This document shows positions 28,389 through 63,895 of a stretch of DNA of 64,000 nucleotides, in pieces; positions within the stretch are counted from its first letter, which is position 1; the number at the start of each line of letters is the position of its first letter. Origin of the DNA: Paraburkholderia ginsengiterrae (GTDB lineage Bacteria > Pseudomonadota > Gammaproteobacteria > Burkholderiales > Burkholderiaceae); the NCBI RefSeq assembly GCF_001645125.1, contig NZ_LXKA01000393.1:157172-221171 (forward strand), read 5' to 3'. The translations under genes were made by a program, and so were the position numbers. The notes beneath the pieces are model-generated. The model was not told the origin of the DNA. It saw nothing but the letters and a program-made list of their open reading frames with translations, and searched no databases.

Positions 28389-29537
28389 ATGCGCATTTAT
28401 GAAAGGTACTTCGCGCGTCAGGTCTACCTCACGTTCGTCTTCATTCTGTTTGCGTTTTCGGGTCTATTCTTCTTCTTCGACCTGATCAACGAACTGAACT
28501 CGGTTGGCCACGGCAACTACAAGTTCCAGTACGCGGTGCTGCGGGTTGCGTTGCAAACGCCGTCGCGCTTCTATGAAATCATTCCGGTCGCCGCTTTGAT
28601 TAGTGCGATCTATGTCTTCGCACAAATGGCGGCGAACTCCGAGTACACGATTTTCCGCGTGTCCGGGCTTGCCACCAATCAGGCGCTGCGTTCGCTGCTG
28701 AAGATCGGCATTCCGCTGGTGCTGCTCACGTATCTGATCGGCGAAGTGGTCGGCCCTTACACGGACCAGTTGTCCGAACGTGTGCGGCTCGAGGCGCTCG
28801 GATCATCCGTGTCGACTAATTTCGAGTCTGGTGTGTGGGTGAAAGATACGCTCACCGCGCGCGCGGACGGCGAACAGGTCACACGCTTCGTGAACGTGGG
28901 CGAGCTGAAGCCTGACGCGACGATCAGCAATGTGCGCATCTATGAATTCGATTCGCAATTCCGTCTCTCGAACGTGCGGACTGCGCAGAGCGGCAAGTAT
29001 CAGCCCCCGGGCCATTGGCAGTTGACTGGCGTGACCGATACGCAACTGATCGACGTGCCTCCTCCGTCGGGCACGCCGGCCGACGCGCTGAATCCTGTAT
29101 ATCGGGCACAGCAGGTGTCAGTGCCAGAATATTCGCTGCGCTCGGAGTTGACGCCGCAGATTCTGTCGGTGCTGCTGGTGTCGCCGGATCGTATGTCGAT
29201 GTTCAATCTGTTTCGCTACATTCAGCATTTGACCGAGAATCATCAGGACACCCAGCGGTATGAAATTGCGTTGTGGCGCAAGCTGCTTTATCCGTTTGCG
29301 GTGTTCGTGATGCTCGTGCTGTCGTTGCCGTTTGCATATCTGCATACGCGCGCTGGCGTGGTGGGGATGAAAGTCTTTGGCGGGATTATGCTGGGGATGA
29401 GTTTTCAGCTCTTCAACACGTTGTTCTCGCATATCGGTACGTTGAATACCTGGCCTGCGCCTTTGACTGCGGCGACGCCTGGGCTCGTCTATCTCGTGCT
29501 TGGGTTGGTTGGGTTGAAGTGGGTTGATCGTCATTAG
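28389..29537 (+). CDS. lptG: LPS export ABC transporter permease LptG
   Basis: A 382-aa partner of LptF with the same plan: MRIYERYFARQVYLTFVFIL at the start, two further N-terminal helices, a periplasmic domain (TNFESGVWVKDTLTARADGE, FVNVGELKPDATISNVRIY), and C-terminal helices including LYPFAVFVMLVLSLPFAYL. From about base 29340 the codons turn G+T-rich: 41 of 60 bases in 29341-29400 and 42 of 60 in 29461-29520 are G or T, against 30 of 60 in 28921-28980. Function looks intact. cbiX follows 11 bases on. Confidence 0.94.
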   Translation: MRIYERYFARQVYLTFVFILFAFSGLFFFFDLINELNSVGHGNYKFQYAVLRVALQTPSRFYEIIPVAALISAIYVFAQMAANSEYTIFRVSGLATNQALRSLLKIGIPLVLLTYLIGEVVGPYTDQLSERVRLEALGSSVSTNFESGVWVKDTLTARADGEQVTRFVNVGELKPDATISNVRIYEFDSQFRLSNVRTAQSGKYQPPGHWQLTGVTDTQLIDVPPPSGTPADALNPVYRAQQVSVPEYSLRSELTPQILSVLLVSPDRMSMFNLFRYIQHLTENHQDTQRYEIALWRKLLYPFAVFVMLVLSLPFAYLHTRAGVVGMKVFGGIMLGMSFQLFNTLFSHIGTLNTWPAPLTAATPGLVYLVLGLVGLKWVDRH

Positions 29538-29548
29538 GAGTTGGCGTC

Positions 29549-29917
29549 ATGGCTATGCACGGGATTGTTCTGTTTGGGCATGGCGCGCGGGATGTGCGGT
29601 GGCGGGAGCCGTTTGAAAGGCTTGCTGGGAAGTTGCGGGCTGCTCGCGGTTCGGAGCCTGTGGTGTTGGCGTTTCTTGAGTTGATGGAGCCGGATCTTTC
29701 TACTGCTGTGAGCGGACTCGTCGCCGGCGGGTGTGATGTGGTTACCGTTGTGCCGGTTTTTTTTGGGCAAGGTGGGCATGTCAGGAAGGATTTGCCTCTT
29801 TTGGTCGAGCAGTGTCAGGCTGCGTATCCTTCTGTTCTGATTCGGTGCGCTGGCGCTGTCGGCGAAGATGAGGCGGTGTTGGATGCCGTTGCACTTTATT
29901 GCCTTCGGCAGGTTTGA
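29549..29917 (+). CDS. cbiX: Single-domain sirohydrochlorin chelatase (CbiX-S/SirB type)
   Basis: A 122-aa short chelatase of the CbiX-S type: IVLFGHGARDVRWREPF carries the metal-binding His near the N-terminus, then VVLAFLELMEPDLSTAV, CDVVTVVPVFFGQGGHVRKDLP with the second His. It would insert Fe2+ (siroheme) or Co2+ into sirohydrochlorin. With cobA on the opposite strand it could supply siroheme to CysI. The gene is strikingly G+T-rich on the coding strand (43 of 60 in 29641-29700) and poor in C-ending codons, unlike most of the window. RBS TAGGAG is eight bases upstream. Confidence 0.88.
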   Translation: MAMHGIVLFGHGARDVRWREPFERLAGKLRAARGSEPVVLAFLELMEPDLSTAVSGLVAGGCDVVTVVPVFFGQGGHVRKDLPLLVEQCQAAYPSVLIRCAGAVGEDEAVLDAVALYCLRQV

Positions 29918-30028
29918 GGTTTTTTTGGTTTTTTGGTTTTTTTGCTGCGGGTTTGGTGGTCTGCTTGCCGTGGCTTCATTTCTAGTTTTTTTCTGCCTCA
30001 ATTGGCGCTTTGGCTGTGCTCGTCGGGT

Positions 30029-30272
30029 GTTGGCCTTTCCTTGATTTCACGACGGTCTATTAGCGTTGCCCCTGTGCGGGGCGGCACCTACTTTCTTTGC
30101 GGCGGCAAAGAAAGTAGGCAAAGAAAGCCGCTTCACACCGCTAATTCTTAAGCGGAGCCCCTGGCTTGGAGGGGGTAGTGGTGCATCTGGAATCTGTCAT
30201 CTCGCGCACTCCGCGTGAGTGACAAGGCAGTCATTCTTCCGACAGCGCTGCGCGCGCCGCCGCGGTACTTCA
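30029..30272 (+). repeat. Structured intergenic repeat, copy A
   Basis: One of three near-identical ~213-base units (core 30029-30240), plus a shared tail to 30272. It runs from GTTGGCCTTTCC to GCAGTCATTCTTCC. Hairpins in order: GCCCC/GGGGC (30068-30072, 30078-30082); CCTACTTTCTTTGC/GCAAAGAAAGTAGG (30087-30100, 30105-30118), a 14-bp perfect stem; CCGCTT/AAGCGG; CCCCT/AGGGG. The same stem arms occur in copies B and C although the centre differs (GGCG, CGCC and a two-base GC centre), so structure is conserved. It follows cbiX on the same strand. The spacer 29918-30028 before it is T/G-rich. Short open frames in it are repeat-derived, not genes. Confidence 0.93.
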
Positions 30273-30355
30273 CTTCGGGCAACTGGGTGGGCCTGCGGGC
30301 TGAGCCTCGATTAAAGAGCCCCGCGTACGTGGACCTTTCTCTTTCGGTACGTTGA

Positions 30356-30646
30356 CTATCTCGTCCTGGTACCGCGAGCGAGCAAAATCCACACGACGCG
30401 CATGGCAAGTGCGACCACTACGCAGCATGTAACAAGCAAGCACGTAAGGGCAGTTGTTTCGATAAAGTCTTCGTCGAATAAGTCCTCCCGCCCGCTTGCC
30501 TCGATAACGGCGGCAATCACGTTCCACAGCCAGATCGGTATCCAGAACGAAGACCTCGAAATTAGCGCACCGAGAGTCCATACGCCGACGCACCATGTAG
30601 CGAATACACCAAGCACTCGCGGAACACGGATAAGAATGGCTTTCAT
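30356..30646 (-). CDS. Small two-helix membrane protein, candidate immunity protein
   Basis: A 96-aa protein with two hydrophobic segments (VLGVFATWCVGVWTLGALI, residues ~11-29; LTCLLVTCCVVVALAMRVVW, ~67-86) and an Arg-rich tail. Between them lies a Trp/Phe-rich, partly acidic loop of about 35 residues that would face the periplasm. It starts in the stop of the Tlde1-like gene (ATGA, 30643-30646), so the two are coupled. I do not recognise a family. Its pairing with a periplasm-acting toxin-like gene in an accessory cassette suggests immunity, by inference only. Confidence 0.55.
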   Translation of the reverse strand: MKAILIRVPRVLGVFATWCVGVWTLGALISRSSFWIPIWLWNVIAAVIEASGREDLFDEDFIETTALTCLLVTCCVVVALAMRVVWILLARGTRTR

Positions 30647-31068
30647 CGCACTTCGACCGTACCGTATGCGCGCAACGTTGAGCCTGGGACGGGCAAGTCT
30701 GCCTGGTGCGAACGAATGTACCGCCGAAGGCTATCGAAGGCGAACGGACTAACGACAGTAATACACCCTTGACTCAACCTCATCGGCCCTTCGGGATGCA
30801 GCCTGAAATGTCCTCGCCTGATGCCGTTAATCATCGTCGTGTCTCCGCCGTGAGCGTTCCAGAGCATGAACCATTTCGTATGGTCACCAAACCCAAACAT
30901 TACGACGTTGAAGTCATTTTGTTTCTTAAAAAGAATGTGCACCTTACCGGCATAGGATCCCCCTTTAGAAGTAATCCCAGGCGCCCTGGAACGCGGGGAA
31001 ATAGGACCAACTGAAAGTCTGGCGGCGCTAAGCGCGCCGTTGCGACACCTCGGCAACCTTCGCCACAT
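30643..31068 (-). CDS. Tlde1-like (DUF2778) peptidoglycan-targeting protein, N-terminally degenerate
   Basis: The C-terminal two thirds of this 141-aa reading match Tlde1/DUF2778, L,D-transpeptidase-like effectors often delivered by type VI secretion. It has WFMLWNAHGGD, the catalytic FRLHPEGPMRLSQGCITV (His91, Cys102), and the usual end PVPGSTLRAYGTVEVR. The first ~35 residues do not match: the expected GPLPxGxYY-type segment is missing and the reading is Arg-rich. The next frame encodes SYFPAFQGAWDYF before a stop, like the family's start, so a frameshift or deletion is likely. No good ribosome site precedes 31068. It may be a decayed effector. Confidence 0.6.
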   Translation of the reverse strand: MWRRLPRCRNGALSAARLSVGPISPRSRAPGITSKGGSYAGKVHILFKKQNDFNVVMFGFGDHTKWFMLWNAHGGDTTMINGIRRGHFRLHPEGPMRLSQGCITVVSPFAFDSLRRYIRSHQADLPVPGSTLRAYGTVEVR

Positions 31069-31320
31069 TACTCGCTGAATATTCTTTAGCGCTGTAGTCC
31101 CTTATTCCTTGATGCCCGAGAAAATTCAGAAAATATCCTGCGGCTCACCCTTTAGCTCGCTTAGGCGATCACTCGTGAATCAATACGATTTAAACTCGAT
31201 TCACCGTCAAAACAGTGACGGTCGGGTTTGACAGCCTGCCACCCAAACCTGCACACCTGCCCAAGCAGAGTGTGCGACTATATCTGCACGTCCTATTGTT
31301 ATGGGCGGGCCGTGATAGGG

Positions 31321-31334
31321 AGACCCTAGGGTCT
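31321..31334. repeat. 14-base perfect palindrome in the cassette spacer
   Basis: AGACCCTAGGGTCT is a perfect palindrome, about 100 bases upstream of the 150-aa gene. It could be an operator or terminator-like element. The rest of 31069-31436 (368 bases) is an AT-richer spacer in which I see no gene. Confidence 0.45.
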
Positions 31335-31436
31335 GCTGGTTTGGTTTGGGCCAGTCTGTCAACCGTATCACTGAGCCCGCTCACCACCGTGCAAACGAGT
31401 GTTGAGCGATCTACATCAGCTTCAGGGAGATCGCAA

Positions 31437-31889
31437 ATGAGTAAATCCGCCAAGAATTCTCGCCCCGCTTCGCGCCCACCTGTTGATGCGCTTCAATACG
31501 AAAAACTCGCGCTATCTGCTTTTGACCTCATCGAACGGCAGAAGGGGCAACTGGATAAGCTGATCACATTTGTAGCCTCAATATATAGGAGTCCTGCTGT
31601 GACACACGACGAGAGGCAACACCAGCGAACACTACTGGGTTTATTGATTGATACGGTGGAGGATTATCAGCGAGAAGTGGAGGTCGACCGCGAGTTGTAT
31701 CGGGTCATTGCGCTTGATGCGAAGGGAATTTCTCAAACCCGCCTCACCGCGCGTCACGCGACGAAGCTTCTGACGAAGGCGAGCAAGAAAGCATCAAATG
31801 GCCGCGAGCGCATTGGCGCGGCCGGGGTGATGCAGTGCAAGCACATTCGCTTCAAAACCACTCAGCGCCGTACAGCGACAGCACACTGA
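31437..31889 (+). CDS. Orphan 150-aa protein of the accessory cassette
   Basis: Not recognised. A basic, mostly helical soluble protein: MSKSAKNSRPASRPPVDALQ, then ALSAFDLIERQKGQLDKLIT, LLGLLIDTVEDYQREVEVDR and a Lys/Arg-rich C-terminus (RHATKLLTKASKKASNGRER). A helical pattern between residues ~20 and 100 suggests a bundle or coiled-coil. GGGAGA lies six bases before the ATG. GC content and codon use differ from the core genes, which suits acquisition. It sits between the Tlde1-like gene and repeat copy B, with no partner gene. Function is unknown. Confidence 0.7.
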   Translation: MSKSAKNSRPASRPPVDALQYEKLALSAFDLIERQKGQLDKLITFVASIYRSPAVTHDERQHQRTLLGLLIDTVEDYQREVEVDRELYRVIALDAKGISQTRLTARHATKLLTKASKKASNGRERIGAAGVMQCKHIRFKTTQRRTATAH

Positions 31890-31955
31890 CACGGACTCGC
31901 ACGACATAGCGTAGCAAGACAGCCCCACACCGCACAAAACGAACCAAACGGTTTA

Positions 31956-32007
31956 TGAACTACCGCGACGGCGCGCGAAGCGCCGCCGGAAGAACAACTC
32001 CTTTGTC
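31956..32007 (-). repeat. Detached tail module of the repeat family
   Basis: Read on the minus strand this matches the tail of copy C: CTTCCGGCGGCGCTTCGCG and the following GGTAGTTCAT, including the GGCG…CGCC hairpin. It lies 60 bases beyond copy B, which has its own diverged tail, so the tail is present twice here. This spacer (31890-32067) carries no gene. Confidence 0.75.
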
Positions 32008-32067
32008 AGCGCAAACGGAGCCACATGTTTTGAGCGGGCCGTTCCGGCGAGCGCGTAGCGCGAGGCG

Positions 32068-32280
32068 GGAAGAATGACTGCCTTGTCACCAAGGTGGAGT
32101 GTGCGAGAACACAGATTCCAGATGCACCACTACCCCCTCCAAGCCAGGGGACCCGCTTAAGAATTTGCGGTGTGAAGCGGCTTTCTTTGCCTACTTTCTT
32201 TGCCGCCGCAAAGAAAGTAGGTGCCGCCCCGCACAGGGGCAACGCTAATAGACCACCGTGAATTCAAGGAAAGGCCAACA
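32068..32280 (-). repeat. Structured intergenic repeat, copy B (inverted)
   Basis: The same unit as copy A in opposite orientation, so the two face each other across the 1.8-kb cassette. Read on the minus strand it starts TGTTGGCCTTTCC just after the cobA 3' end and ends CATTCTTCC. All hairpin arms of copy A are kept; the long stem has a changed centre. It lies downstream of cobA in the same orientation. The stretch 32281-32310 between them is 78% A+C over 32281-32340 on the plus strand, so keto-rich on the coding strand. Confidence 0.93.
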
Positions 32281-32310
32281 ACACCCGGGGAAAACAGACA
32301 GACAAACAAA

Positions 32311-33084
32311 TCAAGCTGCCACCAACAACCCACCCGCGGAGCGCCCAACCTCAACCTGCCGGGCAGCAAACGCTTCCCCGATCATCAACAAACTGGGCTG
32401 CGAAGCATCGACCCACTTGACAGCCTCGCCAGCAGCAAGCTCTTCAAGCGTAAAAGTAACCGTCCTCTCACGCGAGGTACTACAAGCCTCAACAATGGCG
32501 ACAGGCGTAGAAGCAGACCTCCCAGCATCAATCAACTGCTGAGCAATCTCAACCCCACTATCCCGGCCCATATAAAACACGAGCGAATCTGCATTCACGT
32601 GCTCGCGAATCTCCTCAGACCCAGGCGCCCGACTAAAAGTAGCCAGCGCAACACTGCGCGAAACACCCCGCAGAGTGAGAGACCGTTTCAGAGAAGCCGC
32701 ACTGGCGAGAGCCGCCGTAATCCCAGGCACAACCTCATACTCGATACCAGCAGCCTCGAGCGCCCGCATCTCTTCATCGGCACGCCCGAACAACATAGGA
32801 TCACCGCCCTTGAGCCGCACGACAACATCGTGCTCCAAAGCAGCATCCACAATCTGCTTGTTGATGAACTGCTGCGCCGTCGACAACTGCCCGCACCGCT
32901 TACCTACAGCAATCCGCCGCGCATGCGAAGGCGCATAGTCCAACATGGCAGGTTCGACGAGCGCATCGTGCAACACGACATCGGCGGTGCCGAGAAGCCG
33001 CGCGCCGCGCACCGTGATCAGGTCCGCAGCACCCGGCCCCGCGCCGATCAGATAAACCTTACCCATTCGCGTCAACCTGTCCAT
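32311..33084 (-). CDS. cobA: Uroporphyrinogen-III C-methyltransferase (SUMT)
   Basis: Methylates uroporphyrinogen III to precorrin-2 using SAM, the branch point to siroheme and cobalamin. The single-domain 257-aa enzyme has VYLIGAGPGAADLITVRGAR, DVVLHDAL, VVRLKGGDPMLFGR, and YEVVPGITAALASAA, the SUMT hallmarks. It lacks the CysG precorrin-2 dehydrogenase/chelatase part, so that step must be elsewhere; CbiX may provide the chelation. Starts at 33084 and 33066 are both possible. It closes the cysI–cysN series, and its coding strand turns G+T-rich toward the 3' end. Confidence 0.93.
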   Translation of the reverse strand: MDRLTRMGKVYLIGAGPGAADLITVRGARLLGTADVVLHDALVEPAMLDYAPSHARRIAVGKRCGQLSTAQQFINKQIVDAALEHDVVVRLKGGDPMLFGRADEEMRALEAAGIEYEVVPGITAALASAASLKRSLTLRGVSRSVALATFSRAPGSEEIREHVNADSLVFYMGRDSGVEIAQQLIDAGRSASTPVAIVEACSTSRERTVTFTLEELAAGEAVKWVDASQPSLLMIGEAFAARQVEVGRSAGGLLVAA

Positions 33085-33118
33085 TAACCCATCAGCGATA
33101 CGCGGCAAAACCTGGCAC

Positions 33119-34435
33119 TTACGCCGAAAACGCCCGAATCATCCCGGCAGCAACAGTATGATGCGTCGCTTCGTCGATCAGCACGAACGCCCCCGTCCCC
33201 TGATGCGTGTCATACACATCGCACACCAGCGGCTTCTGCAACGTCAGCGCCACGCGGCCAATATCGTTCATCGCCAGTTCCTTGCGATCGGTCGCCTGCG
33301 ACAGCGTATGCACGTCGAGCACTTCCTTGATCGCACCGATGCGCGCGAACACCGTATTGGTGGTCTGCTTCAACAGATACTTGCGGTGCGTCGACAGCGG
33401 CGTGTCGTCGAACCAGCACAGGTCCGCTTCCAGCTTCTTCGCCGGCTCCGGCGCCGCCTCGCTCAGCACGAACGTATCGCCGCGCGACACGTCCACATCT
33501 TCAGCCAGACGAATCGTCACCGTTTGACCCGCAAATGCGCGGTCCACCTGCGCCGTGCCGCCCACCACCGGAGCGATGATCTCGGCAACCGTCGCTTCGC
33601 GATTCGCCGGCAACACGACAATCGTGTCGCCCACCTTCACTTCGCCAGCTTCGACACGGCCCATGTAGCCGCGGAAATCGTCAGCCTGGCTGCCGTCCTG
33701 GCGCGCCACCCATTGCACCGGGAAACGCAGCGCCTGGCCCGTCGGTACTTCGACCGGCAACGCTTCGAGCAAGTCGAGCAGCGGCTCGCCCGCGTACCAG
33801 GGCATGCTTTCGCTCGCGGTCACGATGTTGTCGCCCTTGAGCGCCGACACCGGCACGAAGCGCACATCGCTCAAACCGAGATGGCGCGCAAGCTCAACAT
33901 ACGCATCGCGGATCTCGTTGAAACGCTGCTCGCTGTAGTCGACCAGATCCATCTTGTTGATCGCGACGATTGCATGCTGCAGGCCGAGCAGCTTCACGAT
34001 CGCGCTATGGCGCTTGGTCTGCGGCAGCAGTTGCGCCACACCGTCCACAAAGGTCACGCGCGTCGCGTCGACCAGGATGATTGCGGCGTGCGCCGTCGAC
34101 GCACCCGTCACCATGTTGCGCGTGTACTGCTCGTGGCCCGGCGTGTCGGCGATGATGAACTTGCGCTTGGCGGTCGCGAAGTAACGGTACGCCACGTCGA
34201 TCGTAATGCCCTGCTCGCGTTCGGCTTCGAGGCCGTCGGTCAACAGCGACAGGTCGATTTCGTCGCCCACGGTACGCTTGTTCTTCGCGCGCGACAGGGC
34301 CGAAAGCTGGTCGGAGAGCACCGCCTTGCTGTCGTACAGCAGGCGGCCGATCAACGTGCTCTTGCCGTCGTCCACGCTGCCCGCGGTAATGAAACGCAGC
34401 ACGCCGAGGTCTTCAGGTTGATGAATACTACTCAT
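33119..34435 (-). CDS. cysN: Sulfate adenylyltransferase subunit 1 (GTPase)
   Basis: With CysD it activates sulfate to APS, driven by GTP hydrolysis. A 438-aa EF-Tu-like GTPase with G1 GSVDDGKST (19-27), G3 DTPGHEQY, and G4 NKMD, then the two beta-barrel domains (DTPLSTHRKYLLKQTTN). There is no C-terminal APS-kinase (CysC) fusion, and no separate cysC nearby, which agrees with an APS-reducing CysH. It starts 25 bases after cysD. The first in-frame extension has no ribosome site. Confidence 0.95.
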   Translation of the reverse strand: MSSIHQPEDLGVLRFITAGSVDDGKSTLIGRLLYDSKAVLSDQLSALSRAKNKRTVGDEIDLSLLTDGLEAEREQGITIDVAYRYFATAKRKFIIADTPGHEQYTRNMVTGASTAHAAIILVDATRVTFVDGVAQLLPQTKRHSAIVKLLGLQHAIVAINKMDLVDYSEQRFNEIRDAYVELARHLGLSDVRFVPVSALKGDNIVTASESMPWYAGEPLLDLLEALPVEVPTGQALRFPVQWVARQDGSQADDFRGYMGRVEAGEVKVGDTIVVLPANREATVAEIIAPVVGGTAQVDRAFAGQTVTIRLAEDVDVSRGDTFVLSEAAPEPAKKLEADLCWFDDTPLSTHRKYLLKQTTNTVFARIGAIKEVLDVHTLSQATDRKELAMNDIGRVALTLQKPLVCDVYDTHQGTGAFVLIDEATHHTVAAGMIRAFSA

Positions 34436-62731: not shown

Positions 62732-63613
62732 ATGTCGGTTCACGAAAATCATGTCACGTTAGCCGCCGCTCAGGCTGGTGCGCATTCGCCATGGCGCGCG
62801 CGTCTCGAACTCGGGTTCGTCAAGGATGGCGAGCGCACTGCGCTCAAACATCGGCTGCACGACGGACCGTTGCGCGTGCAACGACCGCTATATCCTGAAG
62901 GCCACGCGATCTGCCACGCGGTGATCGTGCATCCACCCGGTGGAATCGCGGGCGGCGATCAGTTGGGTATCACAGTCGATGTCGGCGCTGGTGCTCATGC
63001 GGTGATCACTACGCCAGGTGCGACCAAGTGGTACAAGTCCAATGGACGAACCGCGCAGCAGCATATTGCCGTGCGCGTCGGCGAGCGGGCGAAGCTCGAC
63101 TGGCTGCCGCAGAACAATATCGTTTTTGATCACGCCAATGCGAAGCTGGATTTTTCGTTGACGCTGAGTGAAGGTGCGACTGCGATTGGATGGGATGCTA
63201 CGCAGCTTGGGCGGCAGGCAGCCGGTGAGCGGTGGTCGGACGGCAGCTTGCGCGCGGTGTCGCGGATCGTAGGCGCCGACGGGGAGTTGTTGTGGCTCGA
63301 ACGCGCAAATCTTGCGGCGGGGGATGCGCTGCGCGATGTGGCGCAAGGGTTGGCTGGGTTTCCTGCTTATGGGACGCTTTGGGCCGTTGGGGAAGCTTGC
63401 GATGACGTGCTTGCTGAAATGCTCACCGCTCAGCTTCCCTTTGATGATTCGCTGCGGGCGGCAGCTTCTTGTGTCACTTCAGGGGTGCTGCTCGTGCGGG
63501 CGGTTTCGCGGTCGATGGAAACGCTGCAGCAGGCTTTGATTCGGTGCTGGTTGCAGATGCGGCCGGTTGTGCATGGGGTGGAGGCGGCGCCGTTGCGGAT
63601 ATGGGCGACTTGA
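62732..63613 (+). CDS. ureD: Urease accessory protein UreD
   Basis: A 293-aa UreD, the scaffold that binds apo-urease and recruits UreF and UreG for nickel loading. Motifs: [87 protein letters not shown] and [19 protein letters not shown], all UreD hallmarks. The structural genes ureABC usually follow, but repeat copy C lies right after it and the window ends. G+T on the coding strand rises along the gene (28 of 60 bases in 62821-62880; 43 of 60 in 63541-63600). Confidence 0.93.
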
Positions 63614-63648
63614 GGGGCTTTTTGTTTTTCTAGCCGTGTGTTTGGTGG

Positions 63649-63895
63649 TGTTGGCCTTTCCTTGAATTCACGGTGGTCTATTAGCGTTGCCCCTGTGCGG
63701 GGCGGCAACCTACTTTCTTTGCCGCGGCAAAGAAAGTAGGCAAAGAAAGCCGCTTTACCACCGCTAATTCTTAAGCGGGTCCCCTGGCTTGGAGGGGGTA
63801 GTGGTGCATCTGGAATCGGTGCTGTCGCACACTCCACCCTGGTGACAAGGCAGTCATTCTTCCGGCGGCGCTTCGCGCGCCGGCGCGGTAGTTCA
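63649..63895 (+). repeat. Structured intergenic repeat, copy C
   Basis: The third copy of the repeat (core 63649-63863, shared tail to 63895), in the same direction as ureD and directly after it. The long stem is a 32-base perfect palindrome here, with arms CCTACTTTCTTTGCC and GGCAAAGAAAGTAGG. The tail CGGCGGCGCTTCGCGCG and GGTAGTTCAT matches the detached module at 31956-32007. It separates ureD from whatever follows. The last 105 bases of the window (63896-64000) show nothing further. Confidence 0.93.

Follow-up and report, generated by a model that had tools for sequence, protein, structure and literature searches.

BIME/REP and MITE-like repeats in bacteria are dispersed, intergenic and hairpin-rich, and often stand in inverted pairs. 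At human meiotic double-strand break (DSB) hotspots, mutation is strand-asymmetric in the 2 kb of flanking DNA: the forward strand carries C>N and A>N changes on one flank and the complementary changes on the other, and the asymmetry is ascribed to resected single-stranded DNA (ssDNA), which lies on the forward strand to the left of the break (PMC7615360). For the 230-nt repeat considered here, the sole related record found is the Rfam family RF02421 (Bp1_684, a Burkholderia sRNA), which is described as an sRNA in a source paper whose main text does not contain the word 'repeat' (PMC3521395). The literature search covered titles and abstract openings among the matches listed, with few subscription papers, and returned no account of the repeat as such or of a bacterial footprint like the one described below. 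The earlier note on this DNA had known of no described system with the signature, which is uncontradicted among the matches listed; its geometry, however, matches that of human meiotic break hotspots (PMC7615360).

The window, that is, the whole stretch of DNA analyzed, spans 64,000 nt of an 8.53 Mb draft genome (G000), in which the best 30 own-genome matches to the repeat are labelled L001-L030. In a collection of named genomes, the closest relatives of its LptG belong to Paraburkholderia and are 96-97% identical. The features relevant to the skew are as follows.

28389..29537, + strand: lptG (LptF_LptG family; Pfam PF03739, E 6.8e-68), reading toward copy A
28800..30027, + strand: outer flank of copy A, with a G+T gradient on the strand entering the repeat, comprising the 3' part of lptG, cbiX and a spacer
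29549..29917, + strand: cbiX (Pfam PF01903), reading toward copy A, with a fourfold-site T/(C+T) of 0.69
30028..30257, + strand: repeat copy A, of 230 nt, forming the left arm of an inverted pair whose arms face inward, from a repeat search and own-genome matches
30258..32050, no strand: interior (cargo) between the inverted copies, without G+T skew of the outer-flank kind
32051..32280, - strand: repeat copy B, the right arm, 91% complementary to copy A and 1793 nt apart from it
32281..33300, - strand: outer flank of copy B, with a like gradient on the minus strand, on the cobA side
32311..33108, - strand: tetrapyrrole methylase gene (cobA-like; Pfam PF00590), reading toward copy B
62900..63648, + strand: outer flank of copy C, skewed as the flanks of copies A and B
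63649..63880, + strand: repeat copy C, close to the end of the window, which is the end of the contig (C383)

The outer ~70 nt of copy A, together with 26 nt beyond it, match RF02421 on the opposite strand with a score of 39.6 bits, and copy B scores 31.7 bits; both lie below the gathering threshold of 44, and membership of this sRNA family was rejected on that ground. Matches over the threshold occur in 48 of 200 genomes of the family. The cargo between copies A and B contains an ORF on the minus strand with a Tlde1 domain (30643-31068; Pfam PF10908) and, beside it, a small ORF that matched no Pfam family. A C4 antisense RNA lies at 31297-31388, and c4-a1b1 is matched more weakly at 31190-31242. 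The cargo also includes an orphan ORF, starting MSKSAKNSR, whose relatives were recognized by eye in the cargo of L055, L062, L066, L076 and L077. Several contig ends of the G000 draft (C1, C256, C189, C300, C383) fall within a few hundred bp of copies, so that assembly appears prone to break at the repeat.

The earlier note rested on six 60-nt counts of G+T on the way to copy A, all of which are exact on recount (30, 30, 41, 42, 42, 43). The rise that they describe is real, but imperfectly monotonic, as two omitted windows hold 41 (29281-29340) and 33 (29401-29460). The skew does stay high up to copy A: the 250-bp windows at 29501 and 29751 have G+T of 0.716 and 0.720, and are the two most deviating among 256 such windows (mean 0.488, sd 0.049). 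Every one of the seven most deviating windows adjoins copy A, B or C. The G+T skew is thus no chance feature of a single gene.

It had further been proposed that the skew would recur around other copies and be lacking in genes far from any copy, and both expectations are borne out. In G000, all 29 flanks that were long enough (from 31 own-genome copies, two having too short a flank) have G+T of 0.58-0.76 in their first 250 bp on the repeat-pointing strand, which enters the copy in the 5'->3' direction, declining to ~0.5 by 1-1.5 kb. Four more genomes of the genus, contributing 20 (G037), 14 (G022), 5 (G030) and 1 (G014) stretches, show the same flank skew. With the five genomes pooled, and with copies without an outer end (q1>6) and flanks of at most 1.5 kb excluded, G+T on the repeat-pointing strand exceeds 0.5 at 125-750 bp in 105 of 105 flanks (mean 0.604), against 50 of 100 equal-sized windows 3 kb off (mean 0.503; Mann-Whitney p = 1.7e-32, same-genome flanks being partly dependent). 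Among 500-bp windows, G+T departs from 0.5 by more than 0.12 in either direction in 70 of the 376 that lie no more than 1 kb from a copy versus 6 of 1244 elsewhere, rates which come from loci picked around copies and are hence not whole-genome rates. Three of these deviating windows sit at least 1.5 kb from a copy, and two of the three are in L164, where, we infer, inserted sequence parts the skewed flank from its copy. By contrast, 72 control genes distant from the repeat are ordinary at their ends, with a mean G+T of 0.566 in the last 540 nt and a single gene above 0.70.

The repeat is present in 49 of the 59 genomes of the genus examined, and related copies, found via RF02421, in 58 of 200 genomes of the family, representing 5 of 25 genera. 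In genus g12 (seven paired loci) the skew around related copies is shorter, mostly in the first 125-250 bp, and in genus g10 it is confined to ~125-500 bp. The g12 pairs vary in spacing, and two of them (L133, L137) hold 2-3 kb with PAAR-like ORFs, as judged by eye.

The skew is an attribute of the outer sides of the pairs. Both outer sides are skewed equally (0.603 vs 0.607), and in five long pairs retained after filtering, mean G+T is 0.520 over the inner 500 nt and 0.648 over the outer 500 nt. Two copies without a detected partner, L043 (complete) and L050 (truncated), have adjacent skew on their 5' side only; a further G+T-rich stretch (0.62-0.65) lies 1.25-1.6 kb off on the other side of L043. 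One intact copy (L189 at 5504) has next to no skew, and some copies that miss their outer end have none outside (L186 at 5758; L189 at 5788, 18197 and 18328).

At fourfold sites of genes reading toward a copy, T/(C+T) is 0.141 at a distance of 3-4.5 kb and climbs to 0.799 within 125 bp of it; A/(A+G), at 0.086 far away, is down to 0.03-0.05 within 750 bp. Relative to far sites, the fourfold T:C odds are 24x beside the copy, ~3x at 500-750 bp and 1.1x at 2-3 kb. At 250-750 bp G gains more than T at fourfold sites, which may be read as C->T followed by T->G where the genome favours third-position G+C. In own-genome flanks, with genes called by a simple ORF scorer, third positions carry most of the change in toward genes, as had been claimed: fourfold C drops from 0.422 to 0.089 and T rises from 0.061 to 0.420, and G+T at codon positions 1+2 shifts from 0.505 to 0.573. 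Non-genic DNA in these flanks, checked separately, goes from 0.491 to 0.753 G+T near the repeat. The rise in T:C odds at fourfold sites of toward genes depends on the preceding base (3.1 after G, 10.5 after C, 11.8 after T), but this difference is slight in non-coding DNA (1.8 after G vs 2.3-2.6), and so no deaminase is claimed.

The copies themselves vary in layout. In L164, L158, L162 and L170 they are split or displaced by ~1.4-1.5 kb of other sequence, with outer flanks that are still skewed and intervening DNA that is skewed little or not at all; such displaced copies could possibly help to date insertions relative to one another. Directly beyond the 230-nt repeat in L157, L162, L166 and others there is an imperfect repeated outer unit, whose outer layers look by eye more decayed than its inner ones, as would be expected had the element grown outward and its older layers degenerated. 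Inside the pairs of L171, L175, L178, L076 and L077, the 3' part of the repeat occurs in tandem with a period near 137 nt.

The earlier note had placed the skew on the coding, non-template strand, and this part of it is not supported. In genes reading away from a copy, the repeat-pointing strand is the template strand, and it is nevertheless G+T-rich in all 26 flanks with enough sites near and far; toward genes, with 26 flanks of the same kind, have raised G+T near the copy in 26. T/(C+T) on the repeat-pointing strand is raised in 22 of the 26 away flanks, with medians of 0.183 near and 0.077 far once ORF starts are trimmed, untrimmed calls extending into the non-coding leader and inflating the near-repeat C->T. 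All ten away-reading ORFs in G000 have a Pfam family match. The 53 toward flanks and the 37 away flanks have almost the same raw G+T profile, the other 15 of the 105 flanks having no gene called within 900 bp. Gene direction is therefore something that alters the reach of the effect and not its sign: the median near-copy T/(C+T) is 0.535 in toward versus 0.183 in away genes, and at 250-375 bp it is 0.556 versus 0.223. Because C->T reaches further in toward genes, and because the away-reading valS (see below) is nearly unchanged, transcription toward the element probably adds to the effect; because the sign follows the repeat and not the gene, deamination of the non-template strand alone is insufficient. 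Pausing or termination of RNA polymerase at the hairpin-rich repeat, with deamination of the non-template strand displaced by R-loops, would cover this longer reach and the near-absence of effect in valS. It would, however, give the opposite sign in away genes, contrary to all 26 away flanks, it sits badly with raw profiles that almost coincide, and the 72 gene 3' ends distant from the repeat are without such skew; as the main cause we regard it as unlikely.

The direction of change was examined in 81 aligned lptF-lptG-cbiX loci (80 named records and the window), 31 with and 50 without the repeat as hand-listed from BLAST hits. Comparison of the two groups confirms the association, with a mean cbiX T/(C+T) of 0.665 in the 31 loci with the repeat versus 0.222 in the 50 without, and 0.132 versus 0.099 for lptF, upstream of lptG. 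Where this locus lacks the element, the gradient is missing or weaker in most species. In Paraburkholderia xenovorans LB400 (L052) the locus has one copy, with no partner in the stretch covered. Terminal-branch substitutions were assigned by parsimony, using branches with an unambiguous parent state only. In cbiX, terminal C->T changes affect 31 of 184 C with the repeat versus 23 of 658 without, and the complementary G->A does not rise (11/366 versus 25/548). Since the one is raised and the other not, the process is strand-specific C->T, and in repeat-bearing cbiX it appears to be still continuing. Composition and cbiX substitutions together uphold the proposal that the change is mainly C-to-T on the repeat-pointing strand, and that A also declines against G, though to a lesser extent. 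For terminal C->T at the lptG 3' end the difference is weak (11/222 with the repeat versus 21/623 without). Terminal T->C changes in cbiX are rarer with the repeat (18/310 versus 22/166), an outcome not expected from pure mutation bias.

Nine repeat-free species have a raised cbiX T/(C+T) of 0.38-0.64. L055, the sole one among those looked at to do so, contains a truncated remnant together with the same cargo as the window, which fits a recent loss of the repeat; for the others, loss is a guess. A tblastn search of the 6 kb that follow lptG did not find cobA in eight full-length loci (L052, L067, L070, L075, L078, L092, L103, L118), so that gene order breaks near the element site whether a copy is present or not.

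At valS, which reads away and starts 79-234 bp from the facing copy, 50 of 118 genomes' loci were used (30 plus 20 hand-picked), 49 of the 50 falling into the two groups. There is almost no C->T in this gene, and A/(A+G) is 0.077 in the 26 loci with the repeat versus 0.060 in the 23 without, a contrast blunted by the presence among the latter of L211, L212 and L216. These three loci, and L205, which is not among the 23, hold short remnants resembling the outer unit between uvrD and valS (by eye), with no full copy, as if the inside of a pair had been lost.

Copies occupy shared loci across many species, for example beside fliL, valS and lptG. The comparison of copies was made for those with a query match from position 1-8 through 200 or beyond, 37 of 169 having both comparison sets, and some genomes gave only 1-2 other-locus copies. 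Among the 37, all except one are closer to other-locus copies of their own genome than to same-locus copies elsewhere, with a mean identity of 0.866 within genomes versus 0.787 at the same locus across genomes. That copies at loci shared between species are homogenized within each genome suggests that they convert one another; re-insertion at those loci could give a like concerted pattern.

We tentatively favour, at somewhat less than an even chance, the reading that the repeat is a recombination-active element whose flank is recurrently exposed as a 3'-ended single strand in the course of recombination, because hotspot-like geometry is found together with concerted evolution. In such a process, the element would repeatedly suffer strand breaks or nicks, at its edge or within it; the 5'-ended strand would be removed outward from it, and the 3'-ended strand of the flank would stay unpaired over as much as ~1 kb. 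Deamination or miscopying would there affect cytosines and, more rarely, adenines, and repair via other copies would lead to concerted evolution. We infer the break as well as the nuclease, and likewise the single-stranded state and the deamination. Two hallmarks of a hotspot can be recognized, namely strand-asymmetric mutation mirrored on both flanks, and raised exchange or conversion between copies (36 of 37), which re-insertion at the same loci could mimic. Several observations speak against this reading: the near-lack of C->T in valS, the weak difference at the lptG 3' end, the intact copy of L189 (at 5504) that is barely skewed, the nine raised repeat-free species, the rarer T->C in repeat-bearing cbiX, the excess of G over T in the gain at 250-750 bp, and the G+T-rich stretch on the other side of L043. 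L043 and L050, with skew on the 5' side only, argue against a two-ended break, which would expose both sides, unless they are remnants. A gradient of a few hundred bp may also be short for RecBCD/AddAB resection. A broader statement, that dispersed repeats are standing polar recombination sites throughout the chromosome, comparable to the break hotspots of eukaryotes, with outer flanks repeatedly opened into 3' single strands that leave a C->T scar even in codons, and with copies that convert one another and exchange cargo genes, is possible, and doubtful enough that we offer it as a conjecture.

An alternative source of ssDNA would be replication. If the folded repeat strand stalled the polymerase, a post-replicative gap could extend 5' to the next primer with any fork direction. 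This would cover outer-side skew and the one-sided skew of solo copies as well as the equality of left and right flanks, with no need for close arms; the flanks are Okazaki-like in scale, and copy A, the one copy folded in this comparison, has a predicted energy of -51.7 kcal/mol versus -35.0 (sd 3.8) in 100 mononucleotide shuffles. The strand due to fold is, however, predicted to be more stable than its complement in just 31 of 91 copies, which leaves the choice of strand unexplained, and the G-quadruplex pattern that was tried matched none of the 91 copies on either strand. Gaps of this kind are an improbable cause on balance.

Alternatively, an enzyme could cut or nick the outer end of each copy, as when a MITE-like element is attacked by a transposase, with the flank then resected. 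The skew does begin at the outer boundary and spare the interior, a solo copy would yield one-sided skew, and some copies without the outer end (in L186 and L189) are unskewed outside. Against this, valS offers no readable target-site duplication or clean empty site, and its repeat-free loci L205, L211, L212 and L216 retain the outer remnants described above; L164 suggests that an insert can separate a skewed flank from its copy; and the Y1/RAYT-type family PF01797 occurs in 59 of 59 genomes, repeat or not, mostly as one weak match. Such cutting is a poor prospect in our estimation.

Very unlikely, in turn, is an origin by selection and not mutation, with RecA- or Chi-like steps favouring G+T-rich flanks. 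The E. coli Chi octamer occurs 11 times toward the repeat and once in reverse in the flanks, for which G+T richness alone may suffice. RecA prefers TGG-like, Chi-like sequence (PMC3763553), and this too would suit selection. The change is nevertheless broad and graded, and lies in synonymous and non-coding sites; enriched words are modest, none of the top 12 8-mers occurring in more than 22 of 105 flanks; and the substitutions in cbiX are directed C->T. A preference of the repeat for landing in G+T-rich places could appeal to the nine repeat-free species with raised cbiX T/(C+T), but is the least credible account, given that most repeat-free cbiX are low (mean 0.222 in 50 versus 0.665 in 31), that ongoing C->T gain in repeat-bearing tips argues against it as sole cause, and that the raised L055 holds a remnant with the same cargo.

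Other candidates were tried and rejected. Cruciform extrusion of the pair is disfavoured, the skew being no stronger with closer arms: the pooled Spearman rho between spacer and skew is +0.47 (44 pairs), partly a between-genome effect because G030, with spacers of 55-113 bp, is weakly skewed, and the values within genomes are 0.15 (n=10), -0.15 (n=15), 0.73 (n=13) and -0.31 (n=5). A hairpin or G-quadruplex on one strand was set aside, as the strands are alike in predicted stability and the one G4 pattern tried had no match. A Y1/RAYT (REP-type) element was rejected for lack of association (PF01797 is in all 59 genomes, the repeat in 49 of them), and a Chi-like motif because none is common to most flanks. 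With forks travelling in a single direction the left flank of a pair should differ from the right; the two are equal, and replication-direction skew was discarded.

If recurrent recombination at the element is the true cause, the skew would be a readable scar of where ssDNA forms in living bacteria, tied to one repeat, and would offer a bacterial counterpart of recombination-hotspot mutagenesis that can be put to the test. A non-coding repeat goes here with altered codon usage and slightly altered protein composition in its neighbours, up to ~1 kb away. Such signals can mislead gene callers, including the ORF scorer used here, as well as codon-usage tests and phylogenies.

Among described systems, the repeat flanks resemble human DSB hotspots in that the loss of C falls on the strand that turns its 3' side to the center, is mirrored on the other flank and spans about a kilobase; they differ in being bacterial and centered on a dispersed repeat, in recording long-term composition, in being dominated by C->T, and in that the break is a putative one (PMC7615360). 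With Chi and the RecBCD/AddAB hotspots they share polarity and a single-stranded 3' end on one side (PMC5443536). Chi is a short word, unlike the 230-nt repeat. We know of no C->T gradient beside Chi. The repeat is like BIME/REP and MITE-like repeats in being dispersed, intergenic, hairpin-rich and often paired in inverted orientation, and unlike them in its 230-nt unit, in its lack of association with Y1/RAYT, and in the kilobase-scale mutational footprint that lies outside it.
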